A DNA stretch of 48,646 nt from Alphaproteobacteria bacterium HGW-Alphaproteobacteria-11. GTDB taxonomy: Bacteria; Pseudomonadota; Alphaproteobacteria; Parvibaculales; Parvibaculaceae. Positions 32,412 through 46,059 of this stretch are shown piece after piece (the stretch's first letter is position 1; each line of letters opens with the position of its first letter). Below the pieces are notes generated by a model that saw only the letters and a list, made by a program, of their open reading frames with translations, ran no database searches and had not been told where the DNA came from. The DNA lies in contig PHEO01000003.1 in the NCBI GenBank assembly GCA_002841195.1, positions 1-48,646 on the forward strand, given 5' to 3'. Made by a program: the position numbers and the translations under genes.

Positions 32412-32627
32412 TCAGAATTCCGCTGCGGTAAGCGACACCGGCACGACATTGGAAGCAACGGGTGCCGCGGCTGTCGCGGGCGACAGCGATGCGAGGCTGA
32501 ACAGGGCGGGATAGGACTTGCCGGTATAGACGCCGGCCGAGAACAGGGCGGTGGCAACGACGCAGACGCCCGTCACCGCCAGCATGCGGCGGCGTGATCG
32601 GCGATTGTAAAAAATCTTCCGCGCCAT
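32412..32627 (-). CDS. Small hypothetical single-span membrane protein, 71 aa
   Basis: A basic N-terminus (MARKIFYNRRSRRRM) precedes one hydrophobic segment (LAVTGVCVVATALFSAGVYT) and an Ala/Ser-rich tail, probably N-in with a periplasmic tail. I do not recognise the family. The ATG is preceded by GAGGGGA at a good distance, which supports a real gene. It is monocistronic: 140 nt from the SDR start and 84 nt or less from a palindrome (32694-32711). Confidence 0.65.
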   Translation of the reverse strand: MARKIFYNRRSRRRMLAVTGVCVVATALFSAGVYTGKSYPALFSLASLSPATAAAPVASNVVPVSLTAAEF

Positions 32628-32830: not shown

Positions 32831-33010
32831 CTACAGGCGGCGGATGTTGCCGACATTGAGGGCAAGAAAATCGACGATGCGGACGATCTTGCCGACGATC
32901 TTGTCGTCCTTCTGCGTCGGCGTCGCAGCCGCGACGGCGGATGCGGCGCCGATGACGGCGAGCAGCGGTTCGATCCAACCGAGCAGCGCATTGAGGAAGA
33001 GAAAGTTCAT
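32831..33010 (-). CDS. Small membrane protein next to the GTA hydrolase, 59 aa (holin-like size)
   Basis: The frame MNFLFLNALLGWIEPLLAVI begins with a hydrophobic span of about 25 residues (to SAVAAA), followed by TPTQKDDKIVGKIVRIVDFL, an amphipathic basic segment, and ends NIRRL. AGGAAA lies 8 nt before the ATG. It starts 54 nt after the SleB-like hydrolase and before a terminator, so both probably share one transcript. A hydrolase plus a small membrane protein resembles a phage lysis pair, but no holin family could be identified; a structural role is also possible. The 90-aa frame on the same strand overlapping it (MRCSVGSN...) is a shadow. Confidence 0.6.
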   Translation of the reverse strand: MNFLFLNALLGWIEPLLAVIGAASAVAAATPTQKDDKIVGKIVRIVDFLALNVGNIRRL

Positions 33011-33064: not shown

Positions 33065-33436
33065 TCAAGGCGGGTAAAAGAAGTGCTTTCCTATCAGCGC
33101 ATTCGGCGCGGTCTGGCTCGCCCAGCGCGGATAATCCGTGTGCGAATGAAAGCGCGTGGCGCCGTCGGTCGGATCGGGCGCGTCGCCGGTCCAGGCACGG
33201 CAGGCGGCCGACAGCGCGCGCCAGAAGGCCGGATCGGCGAAATCGGAATTCGTCGGCGCAAAGCGGCTCTCGCCGAGCCGGGGGCGGCCGCCCGCGCAAC
33301 GGTTCAGCAGCGCCCAGGCCAGCGCCACGCAGGCTTCCTCGCCCTCGTTTCCGGCCGCGTCGCGCACGATCGCTGCGAGCGCCGCCATTTCGGCAAGCGT
33401 CGGCGTCCGGTCGAAAAGGTCCCTCGCCCCGCCCAT
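33065..33436 (-). CDS. SleB-like cell wall hydrolase (Hydrolase_2 family), GTA-associated
   Basis: A 123-aa protein resembling the catalytic domain of cell wall hydrolase SleB. Visible signatures: TLAEMAALAAIVRDAAGNEGEE with a candidate catalytic Glu, VALAWALLNRC, the FHSHTDYPRWA strand and IGKHFFYPP at the end. No signal peptide is present, as for endolysins and tail-borne peptidoglycan hydrolases. The start is ATG 33436 with GGAGG 8 nt upstream; the GTG at 33451 overlaps that site. The gene lies 94 nt after the GTA tip protein gene. A LexA-type box lies 42-56 nt before the start, so expression may be SOS-controlled. Confidence 0.8.
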   Translation of the reverse strand: MGGARDLFDRTPTLAEMAALAAIVRDAAGNEGEEACVALAWALLNRCAGGRPRLGESRFAPTNSDFADPAFWRALSAACRAWTGDAPDPTDGATRFHSHTDYPRWASQTAPNALIGKHFFYPP

Positions 33437-33477
33437 GGCTGCGGCCTCCACCTCTAGGATTTTGTTCCCATATCTCA

Positions 33478-33492
33478 GAACAAATAGGGAAC
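33478..33492 (-). promoter_or_regulatory. LexA-type SOS box (GTTC-N7-GTTC) before the cell wall hydrolase
   Basis: On the minus strand the sequence is GTTCCCTATTTGTTC, an exact match to the alphaproteobacterial LexA site GAAC-N7-GAAC read on the other strand. It lies in the 94-bp gap between the GTA tip gene and the hydrolase, 42-56 nt before the hydrolase ATG. The second half-site is part of TTGTTC, which could be a -35 element with AATCCT some 16-17 nt further as -10; LexA would then block the promoter. A further GGGAAC arm lies 9 nt downstream. Confidence 0.7.
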
Positions 33493-33530
33493 ACTGTCAA
33501 GCAAAAGCCACGCCGAATTGGAGAGGTCCG

Positions 33531-36500
33531 TCAGAGCGCGACGGTTGCGTGGCCGCCCGTGCCGCGGCCGAAGCGCGCGCTCAACTGGTAGACGGCGATT
33601 TCAAGCGACGGAAAATCCGCGCCGCCGAAATCGGCGATCTGGTCGGCGGTTGCGTATTCCGCTTGCTGCTCGCTCGCCGCGATGACGCGCTTCACCGTCG
33701 TGCCGTCGCGGATTTCGACTTCGTAGCGTTCCGTCTCTTCGGCGAGCGGCACGTCGAGCCCCGCCCAACTGTCGCCGCCGATGCGCGTGCGGCGGATCCA
33801 TGCGATCTCTATATGCCCGTCCGCGTCGCGCCGCGCCCGCAGATGCACAGGACTCAACGGACGCAGGCCGACGCCCACGAAGGCCCGCGTCACGCTCTGA
33901 TAGGTCGCGTCGTCGCGGGGCAGCGGCGCGGGCCCGTAGGCCCAGACGCGCGCGAGGCCGCGCTCGGCGTCGCTCAGCCCGAGTTCGCTCACCGCATCGT
34001 CGAGCAGCACGAAGCGGGCACCGGGCGCAAGCGGCGCGCGCATCGCCGCTTCGCTGCCCGCCTGTCCGCGCAACAACCCGGAAAGTTTCATCTCGCCCGC
34101 CGCGACCAGCAGCGCCTCGCGAAACTGCAATATCTCCCAGTCGCCGTCCGGCGTTTCGAGCGCGGCGGCATTGGCGCCCGCCAGCACGGACAGCGCATCG
34201 GCGCTTGCAAGCGCGCCGCTCGACAATTCGACGCTGAATGCGTTGACCTCGTCCCAGCGCCCGACCGGCCCCCGCATCAAGGGCGTCAGCGTCCGGCCGA
34301 GCGTCGCGGCGCGCGTCACCACGCGGTCGAAGGCAAAGCCCGCGCCGGCGCTCTTGAAAAAGGCGACGCCGCCCGGCCAGGGATCGGCTGCCACCGCGAC
34401 GCGCGGCGCATGCGGCGTCTCCTCGCCGGTCAGGAGCGGCAAGTCCATCAAGACGGCCAGCGGCGTGCCGTAACTTGGCGCGGCGGCCGGGCGGCTCGTG
34501 CGAACCGGCGCCGTCACCGGCCCGTAAAGGCTCGCCTCGCTCTCGACGCCGCGGGCCTCGCGCGCACCGGCATCCGAAATTTCAGTCAGGCGGATGCGCG
34601 CGGCGCGATGCGGCAGGTCGAGCGTCACCACATCGCCCGGATCGAGCGCCAGGAGGCTCGGCGGCAGCGACAGCGCCGCCCGCTCGCGTTCGCTCCACGC
34701 TTTCTGCATCCATATATCGGCGATGCCTTGCGCGGCGGCTTGCGTCAGCACCATCGGCAGCGTCGTTGCCGCCACGCGCTCGCTGCTGCCTGCAAGCCGC
34801 CTTGCCTCGACCGCCGCCTGGCGGTATTCGCCGCCGCCATCGATATAGGCGAGCTTGGCGGCGAGCGGCAGTTCGGTTTCCTGTCCGCGCGTCAGCGCAT
34901 AGCCGGGCGCGGCGCTGGCCTCGCCGACCGCCAGCATGCCGGGTATCAGCGCGACAACGGGCGCATCGCCGAAATGGCGGAAGCGGATCCGGCCTTGCGT
35001 CTCGGCCGCGTCGAAGAAATGCGCCAGCATCAGCGGTTCGAGCGCGGCGCGCGGCGACATGATGCGGTCGATGACGAAGCCCTCGACCGTGCCGCCGAGT
35101 TCGCCGACGTCGAAATCCTCAAAGCCCGCCTCGCGCATGATCGCGGCGGCAAGATCGGCGAGCGGTGCCGCGCCCATGCGGCCGTTCAGCCAGTGGCCGA
35201 GCCGCCAGTTCTCGCCATCGGACCAGATGTCGGTGCGATCCGGGAAGGCCGGAAAGGGCCGCGCGTCCCAGGTCCAGAAAAAGATTCGGGCCGGATCGAC
35301 CATGCGTCCGCCATAGACCGCCGAAACGGGATTGGCGCCCGCGACATGATCCGCATGGGCCGGGTTCCAGTACGACATCTGCGCCTCAATGAAGCGGCGC
35401 TGCATGAAATCGTCCCGTGTGCCGCGCGAGAAATGCGGCAGCGCACTCTCGGCCGATTTCGGATCGACAAACACATTGGGCTGGTTCGTTCCCTTGTCGA
35501 CCGCCGGGCAGCCGAGTTCGGTGAACCAGACCGGCTTCGATTGCGGCACCCAGGCGGTCGGCGTCGTGGCTTCCGCGCCGCCCGGCCGGTTGTAATGTTC
35601 GTTCTGCCACCAGGACTTGATGTCCTTCGCCCGCCACACCCAGGGCTTGCCATGCGCGCCGTCGGTGATCGGCGTGCGGATTTGCGCGGCGCGGTCTTCC
35701 TCGTTCGCATAATACCAGTCGAAACCCTCGCCGCCCGCGATGCGGCCGCGCAGATAATCGAGATCGTAGATCGAACGCCAGCCCGCCACGGCGTCGAGAT
35801 GCGCGTGGCCGTCGCGCCAGTCGGTCAGGGCTGCATAATTGTCGATGCCGATGAAATCGACATTGGTATCGGCCCAGAGCGGATCGAGATGAAAATGGAG
35901 ATCGCCCGTGCCATCGCCCGGCGCGTGGCCCGCATATTCCGACCAGTCGGCCGCATAGGAGATTTTCGTCGCGGGCCCGAGGATCGCGCGCACATCGGCG
36001 GCGAGCGTCTTCAGCGCCGCGACGGCCGGATAGGTGCCGGCCGCACTCCGCACTTGCGTCAGCGCCTTCAGTTCCGAGCCGATCAGGAAGGCGTCGACGC
36101 CGCCGGCATCGGCGCAAAGCTGCGCATAGTGCAGCACCATGCGGCGATAGGACCATTCGCTTCCCGTGGGCAATCCGCTGCCGAAGAATGCCGCGACCTG
36201 CGTTGCCGCCGCGCTTGTCTTGTCGGGCGTGCCGTCGCGGCCGGGCGCCGGGTCGCAGGTGATGCGCCCGCGCCACGGATAGGCGGGTTGCGCGGCCGCA
36301 TCGCTCCACGGGTCGGGCAGTTCGTTGCCGGCCGCCACATCCATCATCACGAAGGGATAAAAGACCGCCGCAAGCCCGCGCGCCTTGATGTCCTGCAACG
36401 CCCGCACAACCGATGCATCCGACGGCGTGCCGCCATAGGCCGGACGGCCATCGATCGTGCTGACGGTTTGCGCGGCGGCGCGCGTGAGCCCCGCGACCGA

Positions 36501-37439
36501 CCAGTGTCCCGGCTGCGTGATCTTGTGGCCGATTTCGACCTTCGGGCGAACCGTGCAATGCCCGCAGCGCAGATCGTCGCCGAACCAGCTCACCACCAGC
36601 GACACGGCCTTTGCGTTCGGGCAGGTCGCCTCGAGATCGTCGAGCGCCACGTGCCAGTCGGCGCGGGCATCGGATGTATGCACGTTCAGCGCCCGGCTCG
36701 ACGTCTCGCTCAGGATTTCGCGCTGCGGGCTCGTGTCGTAGACGAATTCGCCCGCACCGGGGATCATCGTCACCGCGCGCACCATGCCTTCGACTTCGCT
36801 CAACGCGCGGAACACCTCGAAGCTCAGCTGCGGAATGCGATTGCCGAAGGGCGTCACATCCATGTCCTCGAAGACGACATAGGCCGTGCCGCGACAGGCG
36901 GGCGCCGCGTCCGCGCCCTCGATCGCCTCGATCAGCGGGGCGGGCTGCTGCGTTTCGCCGCCCTTGTGCAGCCGCCATGTGAGGCCCGACAGCGGCAGCG
37001 GCTTGCCGTCGGCCCAGATGCGGCCGATGCGCGTCACCTCGCCCTCGCAGAGGCCGACCGCGAAGGAGACGCTGTAACTGTATTCGGTGACGGTCGCCGA
37101 CGATCCGCCGCCGCCCTTGCCGCCGCCTGACGAACGCCGGCTGACATGCTCCTTGTATTCGGTCGCCCAGATCACCTGGCCCGCCAGCCGCGCGCGCCCG
37201 TAAACGCGCGGCACCGGCGCGCCCTCGGTCGAGGCCATCACATGCAGATCGTTGAGGCGCGGGCCTTCGGCGCTCGCGGATGCGCCGAAAAGCTGGCCGT
37301 CGACGTAAGAGCCGAGCCCGGCACCGAGCGCGCCGCCCAGTGCCGCGCCGCTGATGGACGCGCCGAAAATGCTCAGGCCCGACGGCAAAAGCGCGCCGCC
37401 GATGGCCGAGCCGACGGAGGAGAGAACGAGTGTCGCCAT
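33531..37439 (-). CDS. GTA tail tip/host-interaction protein with TIM-barrel domain (g15 homologue)
   Basis: A 1302-aa protein homologous to the last structural protein of the R. capsulatus GTA. The N-terminal glycine-rich region (SVGSAIGGALLPSGLSIFGA) is followed by a segment with RVYGRARLAGQVIWATEYKE. From about residue 330 comes the GTA TIM-barrel-like domain (LQDIKARGLAAVFYPFVMMD ... KPVWFTELGCPAVDKGTNQP, near 643). A tail-tip domain (QGIADIWMQKAWSERERAAL) and a beta-rich C-terminus follow. The protein forms the tail tip that touches the recipient cell. It is intact and follows the NlpC/P60 gene after 3 nt. The opposing 1324-aa frame is a GC shadow. Confidence 0.93.
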   Translation of the reverse strand: MATLVLSSVGSAIGGALLPSGLSIFGASISGAALGGALGAGLGSYVDGQLFGASASAEGPRLNDLHVMASTEGAPVPRVYGRARLAGQVIWATEYKEHVSRRSSGGGKGGGGSSATVTEYSYSVSFAVGLCEGEVTRIGRIWADGKPLPLSGLTWRLHKGGETQQPAPLIEAIEGADAAPACRGTAYVVFEDMDVTPFGNRIPQLSFEVFRALSEVEGMVRAVTMIPGAGEFVYDTSPQREILSETSSRALNVHTSDARADWHVALDDLEATCPNAKAVSLVVSWFGDDLRCGHCTVRPKVEIGHKITQPGHWSVAGLTRAAAQTVSTIDGRPAYGGTPSDASVVRALQDIKARGLAAVFYPFVMMDVAAGNELPDPWSDAAAQPAYPWRGRITCDPAPGRDGTPDKTSAAATQVAAFFGSGLPTGSEWSYRRMVLHYAQLCADAGGVDAFLIGSELKALTQVRSAAGTYPAVAALKTLAADVRAILGPATKISYAADWSEYAGHAPGDGTGDLHFHLDPLWADTNVDFIGIDNYAALTDWRDGHAHLDAVAGWRSIYDLDYLRGRIAGGEGFDWYYANEEDRAAQIRTPITDGAHGKPWVWRAKDIKSWWQNEHYNRPGGAEATTPTAWVPQSKPVWFTELGCPAVDKGTNQPNVFVDPKSAESALPHFSRGTRDDFMQRRFIEAQMSYWNPAHADHVAGANPVSAVYGGRMVDPARIFFWTWDARPFPAFPDRTDIWSDGENWRLGHWLNGRMGAAPLADLAAAIMREAGFEDFDVGELGGTVEGFVIDRIMSPRAALEPLMLAHFFDAAETQGRIRFRHFGDAPVVALIPGMLAVGEASAAPGYALTRGQETELPLAAKLAYIDGGGEYRQAAVEARRLAGSSERVAATTLPMVLTQAAAQGIADIWMQKAWSERERAALSLPPSLLALDPGDVVTLDLPHRAARIRLTEISDAGAREARGVESEASLYGPVTAPVRTSRPAAAPSYGTPLAVLMDLPLLTGEETPHAPRVAVAADPWPGGVAFFKSAGAGFAFDRVVTRAATLGRTLTPLMRGPVGRWDEVNAFSVELSSGALASADALSVLAGANAAALETPDGDWEILQFREALLVAAGEMKLSGLLRGQAGSEAAMRAPLAPGARFVLLDDAVSELGLSDAERGLARVWAYGPAPLPRDDATYQSVTRAFVGVGLRPLSPVHLRARRDADGHIEIAWIRRTRIGGDSWAGLDVPLAEETERYEVEIRDGTTVKRVIAASEQQAEYATADQIADFGGADFPSLEIAVYQLSARFGRGTGGHATVAL

Positions 37440-42980: not shown

Positions 42981-44294
42981 CTATTCGGCGAATTTCAGAA
43001 ACTTGATCGCCTCGAAGTTCTGCACCCCGCCGCCGACGCGCTTGGTGGTGTAGAACAGCACGTAGGGCTTGGCGCTGTAGGGGTCGCGCAGCACGCGCAC
43101 GCCGAGCCGGTCGACGATCAGGTAGCCGCGCTTGAAATCGCCGAAGGCGATGGCCGGCGCATTGGCGCCGATCGACGGCATCTCCTCGGCCTCCGTCACC
43201 GGATAGTTCAGCAGCGTCGGCGGCTGACCGGCGGCCAGCGCCGGCTGCCAGAGATAATTGCCATCGACGTCCTTGAACTTGCGGATCACCGATTGCGTGG
43301 CGCGGTTCATCACGAAGCGGCCATTGGCGCGGTAGCCGGCCTTCACCGCATAGATGAGGTCGATCAGCTTGTCGGACGGATTGGTCGCCGGGAAAGCGCC
43401 GGCCGCGCCCGTCGCGACGAAGCCGAGCTTGCCCCATTCCCAACTCGCATCGGCCACCATCTCGTAGTCGAGGAAGCCGCGCGGCTTTTTGACGCCGTCG
43501 CCGGCGACGAATGCGGCGCCTTCCTGTTCGGCAAAGGCGGTCTGCACCTCTTCGGCCAGCCACTGGTCGATATTGACGGCGGCGTCGTCGAGCAGCGTCG
43601 AGGTCGCGGCCGGCATCGCGTAGAGCTCCATCGCCGGAAACTCGATTTCCGACAGCGTCGGCGTCGCGGTTTGCGCGCGCGCTTCCGTTTCGCCGACCCA
43701 GCCCGTTTGCGGGCCGCCGGTCGTGAACGGCTTCTTGTAGCTCGCGGCGCCGATCTGGCGGACGCCGGCGATGGCGCGTATCGGCGAGACTTCCGAGACG
43801 ATGCGGTCGATCAGCCTTTCGGTCTCGACCGGCACGAGGTAGCCGCCGTCCGGTCCGGGTTGCGTCGACAGCGCCTTCGCCTCCAGCCCGCGCAGCTCAT
43901 GCGCCTCGCCCTTGCGCACATAATGTTCGAAGGCGCGCTTGTGTTCGCGCGCCGCGGCGGGGCCGGCGCGTTCGCCGCCGAGTTCGGGCCGGGCCGCCGC
44001 CAGCGCCAGGTCCTCGACCTTCTTCGTTTGCCGGTCGAGGGCGCGGTCGATGCGGGCGAGCTTCTCGTCGGTCAGCGGATCGGCCGCCACCTTGCGCTCG
44101 ATTTCGCCAAGCCGCTCGTCGTTCGCCTCCTTGAAGGCCTCGAAGGACGTCAGCAGCTCGTCCATCGCCTCGCGCATTTCGGCGCCGGTCGCATCGGCGC
44201 TCTTTCGCTCGCCTTTGGCATCGGGCGCGCTCTTGCGTTCCGGTTCCTTCAGCGAGGCGCCGACGCGCGGCAGGTCGTTCATCCAGAGGGACAT
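42981..44294 (-). CDS. GTA HK97-type major capsid protein (g5 homologue)
   Basis: A 437-aa capsid protein. The first 130 residues (MSLWMNDLPRVGASLKEPER, then a charged coiled coil EMREAMDELLTSFEAFKEAN) form the scaffolding part that the prohead protease normally removes. The HK97 fold follows: LSTQPGPDGGYLVPVETERLIDRI, GWVGETEARAQTATPTLSEI, FVAGDGVKKPRGFLDYEM and FGDFKRGYLIVDRLGVRVLR. The start is ATG 44294 with GGAG six bases upstream. The reading frame is open back to 45596 because of the upstream deletion, which gives an apparent 871-aa terminase-capsid fusion; the separate ribosome site argues that the capsid is made on its own. Confidence 0.9.
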   Translation of the reverse strand: MSLWMNDLPRVGASLKEPERKSAPDAKGERKSADATGAEMREAMDELLTSFEAFKEANDERLGEIERKVAADPLTDEKLARIDRALDRQTKKVEDLALAAARPELGGERAGPAAAREHKRAFEHYVRKGEAHELRGLEAKALSTQPGPDGGYLVPVETERLIDRIVSEVSPIRAIAGVRQIGAASYKKPFTTGGPQTGWVGETEARAQTATPTLSEIEFPAMELYAMPAATSTLLDDAAVNIDQWLAEEVQTAFAEQEGAAFVAGDGVKKPRGFLDYEMVADASWEWGKLGFVATGAAGAFPATNPSDKLIDLIYAVKAGYRANGRFVMNRATQSVIRKFKDVDGNYLWQPALAAGQPPTLLNYPVTEAEEMPSIGANAPAIAFGDFKRGYLIVDRLGVRVLRDPYSAKPYVLFYTTKRVGGGVQNFEAIKFLKFAE

Positions 44295-44323
44295 GGGTTT
44301 CTCCGTTCGGGGGGTGAAAGGTT

Positions 44324-44425
44324 TCAGCTTCGGAAAAGACGCGCCGCCGCCCGCATCGCGCGAACGAGAGCCGCATCGGCGCTCCGTGCCGCCTTGACGG
44401 CGCTGACGCGCGCCTCCGGCAGCAG
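44324..44425 (-). pseudogene. 3' remnant of the GTA prohead protease gene (g4 homologue)
   Basis: In the frame offset from terminase, the last 33 codons before a TGA at 44326-44324 read LLPEARVSAVKAARSADAAL and end AARLFRS. P-(x)2-ARV-(x)2-VK is the usual C-terminal signature of HK97-family prohead proteases in GTAs, and the position just before the capsid start is the normal one. The catalytic N-terminal part is missing. The remnant is joined directly to the large terminase gene. Confidence 0.7.
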
Positions 44426-44426
44426 C

Positions 44427-45545
44427 GGCCACGGGCTCGGCGCGCAGCCGCTTGCCCCGCGTCGCATGGACAAGCCGGATCGGCGCGTCGGGCATTTCCT
44501 GGCGCATCACCTGCGCGACCATCTCGCCGCCGTTGTTCGCCTCGGCGACGATCCGGTCGGCCTCATGGGCGCGGTAGCAGCCGGCGACGCGCTTTGCCCA
44601 GGCAAGCGGCGAGAGGCGGCCCATCGAGCGGTCGTCGATGACGTAAGCCCGGCCGTCGGCGCCGAGCCCCGCGCAGACAATGCCGCATTCGTCGGCGCCG
44701 GTGCCGCTCGAGGCCGGCGGATCGACCGCCACCACCACGCGCACGAAATCGCGCGCGTCGCGCAGGCGCCCCCGCTCGATCGTTTCGCGCGTCCACAGCG
44801 CGTCCGGATTGTCTTCGATCAGCTCGGCGTCGAGTTCCTGCCGCCCGAGCCGCGTGCCTTCGTAGCGCGCGATCACGCTGCGGAAAAATCCATCGGCGAG
44901 GTTGACGCGGTTTGCCGCCGTCGCCGCCCGGGTCACCGCCGTTCTTTCGTCGGCGATCAGCCGTTTCACCAGCGGCGCGGGCCGTGGCGTCGTCGTCATC
45001 ACCTGCCGGGGGCGTGTGCCCAGCCGCAGCCCGAATTGCAGCATGTCCCAGGCGGCCTCGGCGTGGCGCCATTTCGCCAGCTCGTCGCCCCATGCCGCGT
45101 CGAATTGCGGGCCCCGCAGGCTTTCCGGTTCGCCCGCCGAAAACACATAAGCCACCGCGCCGTTCGGCCAGAGCAGCCGCTTGCGCGACACTTCGTAGCG
45201 CGGCCGCATGTCGGCGCGCGCCACCCCGCGCAATCCCGACGGCCCGTCGATCATCACCTCGCGCACATCCGACAGCGTTTCGCCGACCAGCGCGATGCGG
45301 CCCGCGCGGCCGCTCTCGACCTCTTCCATCACCCATTCGGCGCCGGCCCGCGTTTTCCCGGCGCCGCGTCCGCCCAGCATCAGCCAGGTCGTCCAGCCGG
45401 TTTGCGGCGCGAGCTGGTCGGGCCGCGCCCAGAAGCGCCAGCAGGCTTCAAGCGTCCGCGCCTCGCGCGGCGTCAGCTTCTGCGTGAAGCCGGTCCTGAT
45501 CGGCGGCGGCAAAGCAGCGAGCGAAGCGATCCCGAAGTCCGGCAT
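44427..45545 (-). pseudogene. GTA large terminase, C-terminally truncated by deletion (g2 homologue)
   Basis: The first 373 residues of a TerL protein remain. The ATPase domain is intact: Walker A LMLGGRGAGKT (58-65), Walker B QFDAAWGDELAKW with acid pair Asp154/Glu155, and coupling motif MTTTPRP. The nuclease domain begins (VVAVDPPASSGTGADECGIV, Asp275; VAEANNGGEMV, Glu336) but stops at KRLRAEPVA, before the last acidic motif (DxVDAL type), and about 60 further residues are lost. Reading continues out of frame through the protease remnant and then in frame into the capsid. The start, ATG 45545, overlaps the small terminase gene by 98 nt; the frame is open to 45596. DNA packaging by this protein is unlikely. 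Confidence 0.85.
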
Positions 45546-46059
45546 GGATTCGCTCGTCTTCGTCGCGCCGCTTTTTTCTGTCGCTGTCGGGGTCATTCTT
45601 TTTCGCCTGCCGCGCCGCCTGTTCGATTTCGTGAAGCTTGTCGATCGAGCGCACCAGCGAGGCGAGCCGCCGCGCCTGCCGCTCGCCTTCCGCGTCGTCG
45701 CGCGTCATCCGCCGCTGTCCCTCGACATCGGCGATCTCGCGGGCAATCAATTTCGTCAGTCGCGCCGCCAGCGCCTCGGCATCCTCGGGCAGGTCGCCGC
45801 CGGTTTTCGGCGTCGGCGCCACCGCAACCTCGGCGCGTTTCGGCCAATTGTCGCGCTGGGCGCGCGCCGTGATCTTCTGAAACTTGATCGCGTGTTCGTC
45901 CGCTATTTCTTGGAGCCGCTTGGCGCCGATTTCATAGTCGGCGCGAATGCGGTCCCAGTCGATGCCCGCATCGTCCGGCTTGCGCATACGCGGCTTCGCC
46001 GCAGGGCGCACACGCGGCTTCGCCGCGGGCGGCGCCTTCACCTTCCGCTTCGTCGTCAT
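45448..46059 (-). CDS. Putative terminase small subunit/DNA-recognition protein (g1 position)
   Basis: A 203-aa basic protein at the first position of the GTA cluster. The N-terminus is Lys/Arg/Pro/Ala-rich (MTTKRKVKAPPAAKPRVRPA). A helix-turn-helix-like stretch follows (YEIGAKRLQEIADEHAIKFQ KITARAQRDNWPKRA), as in small terminase subunits, then a charged coiled coil (RRLASLVRSIDKLHEIEQAA). ATG 46059 has GGACGG upstream. It overlaps the large terminase start by 98 nt, so its last 32 codons are read in two frames. The family assignment rests on the helix-turn-helix-like segment and on position. Confidence 0.7.
   Translation of the reverse strand: MTTKRKVKAPPAAKPRVRPAAKPRMRKPDDAGIDWDRIRADYEIGAKRLQEIADEHAIKFQKITARAQRDNWPKRAEVAVAPTPKTGGDLPEDAEALAARLTKLIAREIADVEGQRRMTRDDAEGERQARRLASLVRSIDKLHEIEQAARQAKKNDPDSDRKKRRDEDERIHAGLRDRFARCFAAADQDRLHAEADAARGADA

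Follow-up and report, generated by a model that had tools for sequence, protein, structure and literature searches.

At the end of a GTA cluster, in the promoter of a gene for a SleB-fold protein, lies an exact LexA-type SOS box that is conserved in 19 of 20 orthologous promoters from Parvibaculum and a sister genus. The window, that is, the whole stretch of DNA analysed, comprises 48,646 nt from the genome of Alphaproteobacteria bacterium HGW-Alphaproteobacteria-11. We consider it probable that this box is a LexA operator controlling a short exit operon, that the SOS response would reach the GTA activators as well, through a further box before the gafYZ-like genes of the same genome, and that the SleB-fold protein and the small membrane protein encoded next to it aid the release of particles.

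Position and conservation of the box

The box, GTTCCCTATTTGTTC (33478..33492, reverse strand), is separated by a gap of 41 nt from the ATG of the SleB-fold gene at 33436 and spans 42-56 nt upstream of it, just where the original prediction had claimed an exact GTTC-N7-GTTC. The hydrolase promoter, as we call it from here on, thereby has the direct repeat of the alphaproteobacterial LexA regulon. By itself this pattern proves little, since its excess is small in the window (4 matches vs 1.47 expected, with at least 4 in 7 of 100 shuffles) as well as across the 3.25-Mb genome (82 matches vs 46 for the reversed pattern); the spacers of the other three matches in the window are GC-rich.

Instead, it is conservation, not count, that settles at the level of sequence that the box is beyond chance. 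The hydrolase gene was found in 19 of the 27 genomes of the genus, Parvibaculum (G000-G026, G000 being the genome of the window), and its promoter was readable in 18, G005 being cut by a contig end. Seventeen of these 18 promoters have the exact box, as do both genomes of the sister genus g4 (G029, G033), and the 19 boxes carry 16 distinct spacers. Dinucleotide shuffles of the 20 promoters, performed on 130-nt stretches with that of G009 placed by hand around the box (an IS lies between promoter and gene there), gave a mean of 0.09 boxes and a maximum of 3 in 20, against the 19 in 20 observed. A chance match, for which one could cite the window count that is insignificant by itself, is refuted by this difference and retains practically no probability, and an origin of the box in coding sequence is ruled out by the same numbers. 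The original prediction had proposed to look for the box before the orthologous genes of close relatives; there the site is kept, and the predicted LexA-type operator in a conserved promoter of a GTA-attached gene is borne out.

The relatives depart from this picture in several ways. In G004 the box lies on the opposite strand and closer to the start, and G018, in which the gp15, DUF2793, hydrolase and small-protein genes are all present, has no box, the hydrolase starting 11 nt past the upstream gene. Hydrolase gene and box are both lost in G006, G017, G020 and G026; in G017 and G026 (L190, L194) the DUF2793 gene is gone too, and the small membrane protein is retained directly after gp15. In G009 (L188, G009:C47) the inserted element is an IS-like transposase gene that separates the hydrolase from its SOS promoter and seems to have landed inside the second palindrome described below. 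The exact box is absent from all seven hydrolase loci of a further sister genus, g3, where L023 shows the pattern with one mismatch on the opposite strand, and from nine other gp15-positive loci outside Parvibaculum (L059, L060, L064-L069, L127), some of which share their genome with a g3 locus. Box-like sites at non-GTA SleB genes of other orders (L117, L115, L028) were judged unrelated.

Within the window genome, boxes of this kind stand upstream of lexA (TIGR00498, 3.8e-49), recA (TIGR02012, 8.5e-175), uvrA (TIGR00630, 1.3e-260), imuA, an imuB-like polymerase gene and a yifB/comM-type gene, at distances of 73, 119 and 164 nt for the first three; ImuA scores under the NCBIfam cut-off, and ImuB was named by a weak polymerase IV match together with its place beside imuA. 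The imuB box and the hydrolase box differ by one base. Scored with a matrix built from these six SOS genes, the hydrolase box ranks 10th among the 82 matches of the genome, the six training boxes included, and its score of 5.36 compares with 5.64 for the comM-type gene, 2.48 for the recA box and a median of -4.54 for all 82. Identical strong boxes, GTTCTTTTTATGTTC, are found at G000:C203:1373 and C258:4252, upstream of an mraZ-like gene (228 nt) and before a gene for a 247-aa protein, which are possible further SOS genes, and the box GTTCTTGTTATGTTC (G000:C382:8945) lies 23 nt before the gene for a PA0069-family radical SAM protein.

The GTTC repeats could also be read as part of an overlapping operator for a GTA-specific repressor, as inverted repeats (GTTCCC...GGGAAC, TTTGTTC...GAACAAA) do occur at 33461-33493 and the box of G004 lies on the opposite strand. 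Relatives, however, keep the direct GTTC-N7-GTTC and not the inverted repeats, and the spacers resemble those of the uvrA, imuA and imuB boxes; we hold this reading to be very improbable.

Promoter architecture, encoded proteins and state of the GTA cluster

A -35-like TTGACA (33495..33500, reverse strand), conserved in relatives, is located directly upstream of the box and about 30 nt past the stop of the preceding gp15-type gene. In most orthologous promoters the box directly follows TTGAC, and next comes an AT-rich -10-like stretch, in the window GAGATAT (33470..33476, reverse strand), which was recognized from the sequence and by comparison with relatives and is weak in the window genome and better in the relatives; a strict sigma-70 promoter scan of the window found nothing, the hydrolase promoter site included. 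The combined pattern TTGACN{1,3}GTTCN7GTTC has 27 matches in the 27 genomes of the genus vs 5 for the control, and 16 of the 27 are at the GTA hydrolase promoter.

Downstream of the box there is a second conserved element, an imperfect palindrome of the GGAA-N4-TTCC type (GGGAACAAAATCCTA, 33455..33469, reverse strand), and palindromes of type TAGGAATTAAATCCTA come after the -10-like stretch in the hydrolase promoters of the relatives. Its relaxed form, GGAH-N4-DDCC, is present in 18 of 20 hydrolase promoters (shuffle mean 1.6, maximum 5), the exact form in G014, G029 and G033, and similar palindromic elements precede the hydrolase in genus g3, there without the box. Pattern searches of the window and the genome yielded no further relevant copies of this second palindrome. 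It resembles, and we claim resemblance only, the GGAA-N4-TTCC repeats reported at RogA-bound promoters of Caulobacter (PMC9632790).

The gene behind this promoter (33065..33436, reverse strand) encodes a protein of 123 aa, which the original prediction called a cell wall hydrolase. Its match to Pfam Hydrolase_2 (PF07486; E 1.5e-5) stays, at 26 bits, below the cut-off of 27 and covers the second half of the profile only. An AF2 model (pLDDT 87) matches the SleB structures 4f55 (Z 13.5, rmsd 2.3, 111 residues) and 4fet (Z 13.2 over 108 residues), and judged by this model the protein has the fold of the SleB catalytic domain; although the fold is the same, the Parvibaculum rows lack the region around the QFSCWN-type motif. 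The position of Glu157, the catalytic glutamate of B. cereus SleB (PMC11533991), is occupied by Ala in the window protein. In alignment A1, which does not comprise the g4 copies and in which L008 and L009 have insertions at this very position that make their placement unsure, Glu is found in 1 of 17 Parvibaculum rows, in 0 of 6 g3 rows and in 3 of 3 outgroup rows. With the catalytic Glu missing from 16 of the 17 aligned Parvibaculum copies, plain digestion of the wall is doubtful, and so is the hydrolase activity that had been predicted; wall binding or joint action with the membrane protein is the more probable function. The core DPT.GAT.FH.H....W....IG...FY is conserved in the alignment, and the gene is under purifying selection with a dN/dS of about 0.2 (0.041/0.207 for G000 vs G001; other pairs 0.037/0.221 and 0.011/0.165).

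The candidate small membrane protein, holin-like and 59 aa long (32831..33010, reverse strand), is a member of phrog_9685 (E 1.1e-11), a family of unknown function. Relatives of it adjoin Rz-like and lysozyme-like genes, both read by eye, in phage contig L269, and lie near a lysozyme in Azospirillum phage Cd. Matches to viral contigs are widespread, and among the 16 loci read from the best 80 of 297 confirmed ones, some of which are GTA loci, the other phage contigs showed no obvious endolysin adjoining the relative. By tblastn the small protein was undetected in G003, G004 and G007, all of which have the box. The R. capsulatus-type holin PF11351 gave 0 matches in the 27 genus genomes and none in the control either, making this search uninformative. 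A 71-aa protein, MARKIFYNRRSRRR..., without a Pfam match, is encoded at 32412-32627 (reverse strand), and several Parvibaculum genomes encode relatives of it close to the end of the GTA.

The cluster itself follows the RcGTA-type order of gp15, NlpC/P60, capsid and terminase genes, the gp15-type tail protein (33531..37439, reverse strand) being recognized by GTA_TIM (1.5e-155), Rcc01698_C (9e-30) and phrog_4271. In the window, a shortened terminase is fused in frame to the capsid protein (42981..45596, reverse strand) and the portal and protease genes are missing; relative to G001, a segment of about 3.2 kb comprising portal, protease and the end of the terminase is lacking. Both genes, read by size and place, are present in G001 and G013, and the 404-aa G001 ORF between terminase and protease, which was taken for the portal by its position, has no match elsewhere in G000. 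Given this gap and the absence of the 404-aa protein from the rest of the genome, the cluster may be defective or the assembly may be in error, and since portal and protease are missing, functional particles are doubtful in the window genome. The regulatory reading proposed here would therefore be one for the genus and not for the window strain. G013, presumably P. lavamentivorans DS-1, combines a complete GTA cluster with both the hydrolase box and the gafYZ box in a single-contig genome of 3,914,745 bases.

Could the LexA site be real and the gene nothing but the decaying remnant of a GTA lysin, with a promoter that persists by inertia? Several of the above observations would suit such a course: the catalytic Glu missing from 16 of 17 rows, the gene lost along with the box in four genomes, the IS inserted after the promoter in G009, and a window cluster without portal and protease genes. 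Yet neither the dN/dS value nor the conserved core motif is expected of a decaying gene, and the box has been retained in 19 of 20 promoters despite spacer drift, for which reasons we regard decay as improbable.

A further box at the rogA-gafYZ region

Elsewhere in the window genome, the region that separates a rogA-like gene from gafY-like and gafZ-like genes running in the opposite direction contains the box GTTCCTCTATTGTTC (G000:C130:4152-4166, equal to L033:2003-2017). It spans about 37-51 nt upstream of the gafY ATG, and this start codon is preceded by an SD-like stretch. The gafY-like product matches Bac_DnaA_C (8e-16) and the gafZ-like product DUF6456 (1.2e-50), and the arrangement, in which an XRE gene points away from the genes with DnaA-C and DUF6456 domains, is the layout of a RogA-GafYZ module. 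Thirteen of 23 Parvibaculum rogA loci have the exact box on the gafYZ strand at -105 to -115 from rogA (shuffle mean 0.11, maximum 3), and so do both g4 genomes, which carry the hydrolase box too. It is absent from the other 10 Parvibaculum loci, from all 10 loci of g2, g3 and g5, and also from G017 and G026. On a gafZ tree of 36 rows, built without G005, whose contig yielded no gafZ match, and without short fragments from G014 and G023, the box accounts for 6 changes, a number that fits, rather than demonstrates, an old site with several losses.

In G017 and G026, where gafYZ has no rogA neighbour, the gafYZ promoter contains an exact GGAA-N4-TTCC, and in the 23 rogA-adjacent Parvibaculum loci this element occurs in none, even when relaxed; these promoters thus do not confirm the second palindrome as a RogA operator. 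The rogA-like genes (L294-L316) are preceded by another element with strong conservation, TTTRCRTATTTCGTAYATA..GGGGATAAA, at which the local regulator itself may bind, and genus g3 has a TTTGCGTAAAACGCAAA-type palindrome at that place. Two loci, L314 (G003:C104) and L318 (G050), have one in-frame TAG stop inside the rogA-like match.

According to the original prediction, DNA damage would switch on the hydrolase separately from the structural genes. This is probably too narrow: no box precedes the first structural gene in the clusters of five relatives (three matches with GC-rich spacers occur in three of the five), in agreement with it, but the gafYZ-like genes are boxed, those of the window genome included. 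Taken as a whole, the earlier interpretation is upheld in part, namely for the predicted operator in a conserved promoter, and gives way with regard to hydrolase activity and to the separation from the structural genes.

Seven genomes (G008, G009, G010, G012, G016, G024, G025) keep the hydrolase box and lack the gafYZ box. Together with the tight association of the box with the hydrolase gene (the 16 of 27 combined matches) and the lost enzyme residue, this would accord with an ordinary SOS envelope toxin or checkpoint, comparable to TisB and SulA of E. coli, which sits beside the GTA and halts or kills damaged cells with no role in release. Against such a function stand the phage-type order, in which a tail gene is followed by lysis-like genes, the GTA synteny that is kept in other genera where the box is absent, and the second palindrome of the type of the Caulobacter GTA-repressor site, exact at gafYZ in G017 and G026. 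We think this explanation rather unlikely.

A proposed model of SOS control and its relation to known systems

We therefore return to the reading in which SOS serves the GTA itself. A LexA operator would sit between the -35 and the -10 of the promoter for a short operon that ends the GTA cluster and comprises the SleB-fold protein, mostly followed by the small holin-like membrane protein. LexA would repress this operon, and upon DNA damage the RecA-stimulated cleavage of LexA would turn it on. The palindrome just downstream is probably the operator of a GTA-specific repressor akin to RogA or CdxB, in which case the module would require both locks to be open. Through the gafYZ promoter box of the window genome and many relatives, SOS would probably raise expression of the activators and, through them, of the structural genes. 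Transcription that reads through from the GTA operon may contribute to the expression of the pair and is seemingly the sole route in G018. Most likely, the pair has an auxiliary part in lysis and helps to open the envelope so that particles can leave, a role suggested by gene order and phage relatives.

More tentatively, as a possibility that we rate a little below even, the GTA of Parvibaculum and its sister genus would be wired to SOS at two points. LexA would repress both gafYZ and the exit module, in which a SleB fold without its catalytic residue is paired with a holin-like protein under a second lock shared with GTA repression, and a damaged cell would package and release its DNA. If true, kin would gain repair templates, in a manner like prophage induction but benefiting the host population.

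The arrangement is reminiscent of the RogA-GafYZ system of Caulobacter crescentus, with an XRE-type gene divergent from gafY (DnaA-C) and gafZ (DUF6456 here) and palindromes of the GGAA-N4-TTCC type; HTH is the only Pfam domain of the Parvibaculum RogA-like protein. The gafYZ genes of Caulobacter are activators of its GTA cluster (PMC11150451), and the signal by which RogA is removed there is called unknown (PMC9632790). GTAs help recipients to survive DNA damage (PMC9632790). In contrast to that system, as described in the accessible text of these papers, Parvibaculum adds a LexA-type box at gafYZ and at the hydrolase promoter. Furthermore, Caulobacter has in CdxB a repressor of both gafYZ and the lysis operon lypABC (PMC13236601, in whose accessible text the terms SOS and LexA do not occur). 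Here too one regulator would couple GTA activation with lysis, the shared regulator being LexA, but SleB-like and holin-like genes are found instead of the CARD-NLR-like LypABC.

In R. capsulatus, production of RcGTA requires LexA, which appears to work through CckA by an unclear mechanism, and CtrA-P together with GafA triggers the lysis genes rcc00555/6 (PMC9638019), while in-silico LexA sites were described for the GTA cluster of D. shibae (PMC6473078). LexA is linked to GTA biology in both, as it would be here, but the accessible text of these two accounts describes no SOS box at gafYZ or at any lysis-like gene of a GTA; a literature search, with subscription papers mostly outside it, likewise returned no report of one at either place. 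If LexA had its own operator before the activators as well as before a lysis-like module, DNA damage would be linked to GTA output in a simple and testable manner, and damage may itself be the direct trigger for producing or releasing GTA particles. Prophage and colicin lysis genes of enterobacteria are repressed by LexA, through which DNA damage opens the way to lysis. Compared to these, the particle in the Parvibaculum case would be a domesticated one that does not replicate, and the activator and the exit module would each have a box of their own.
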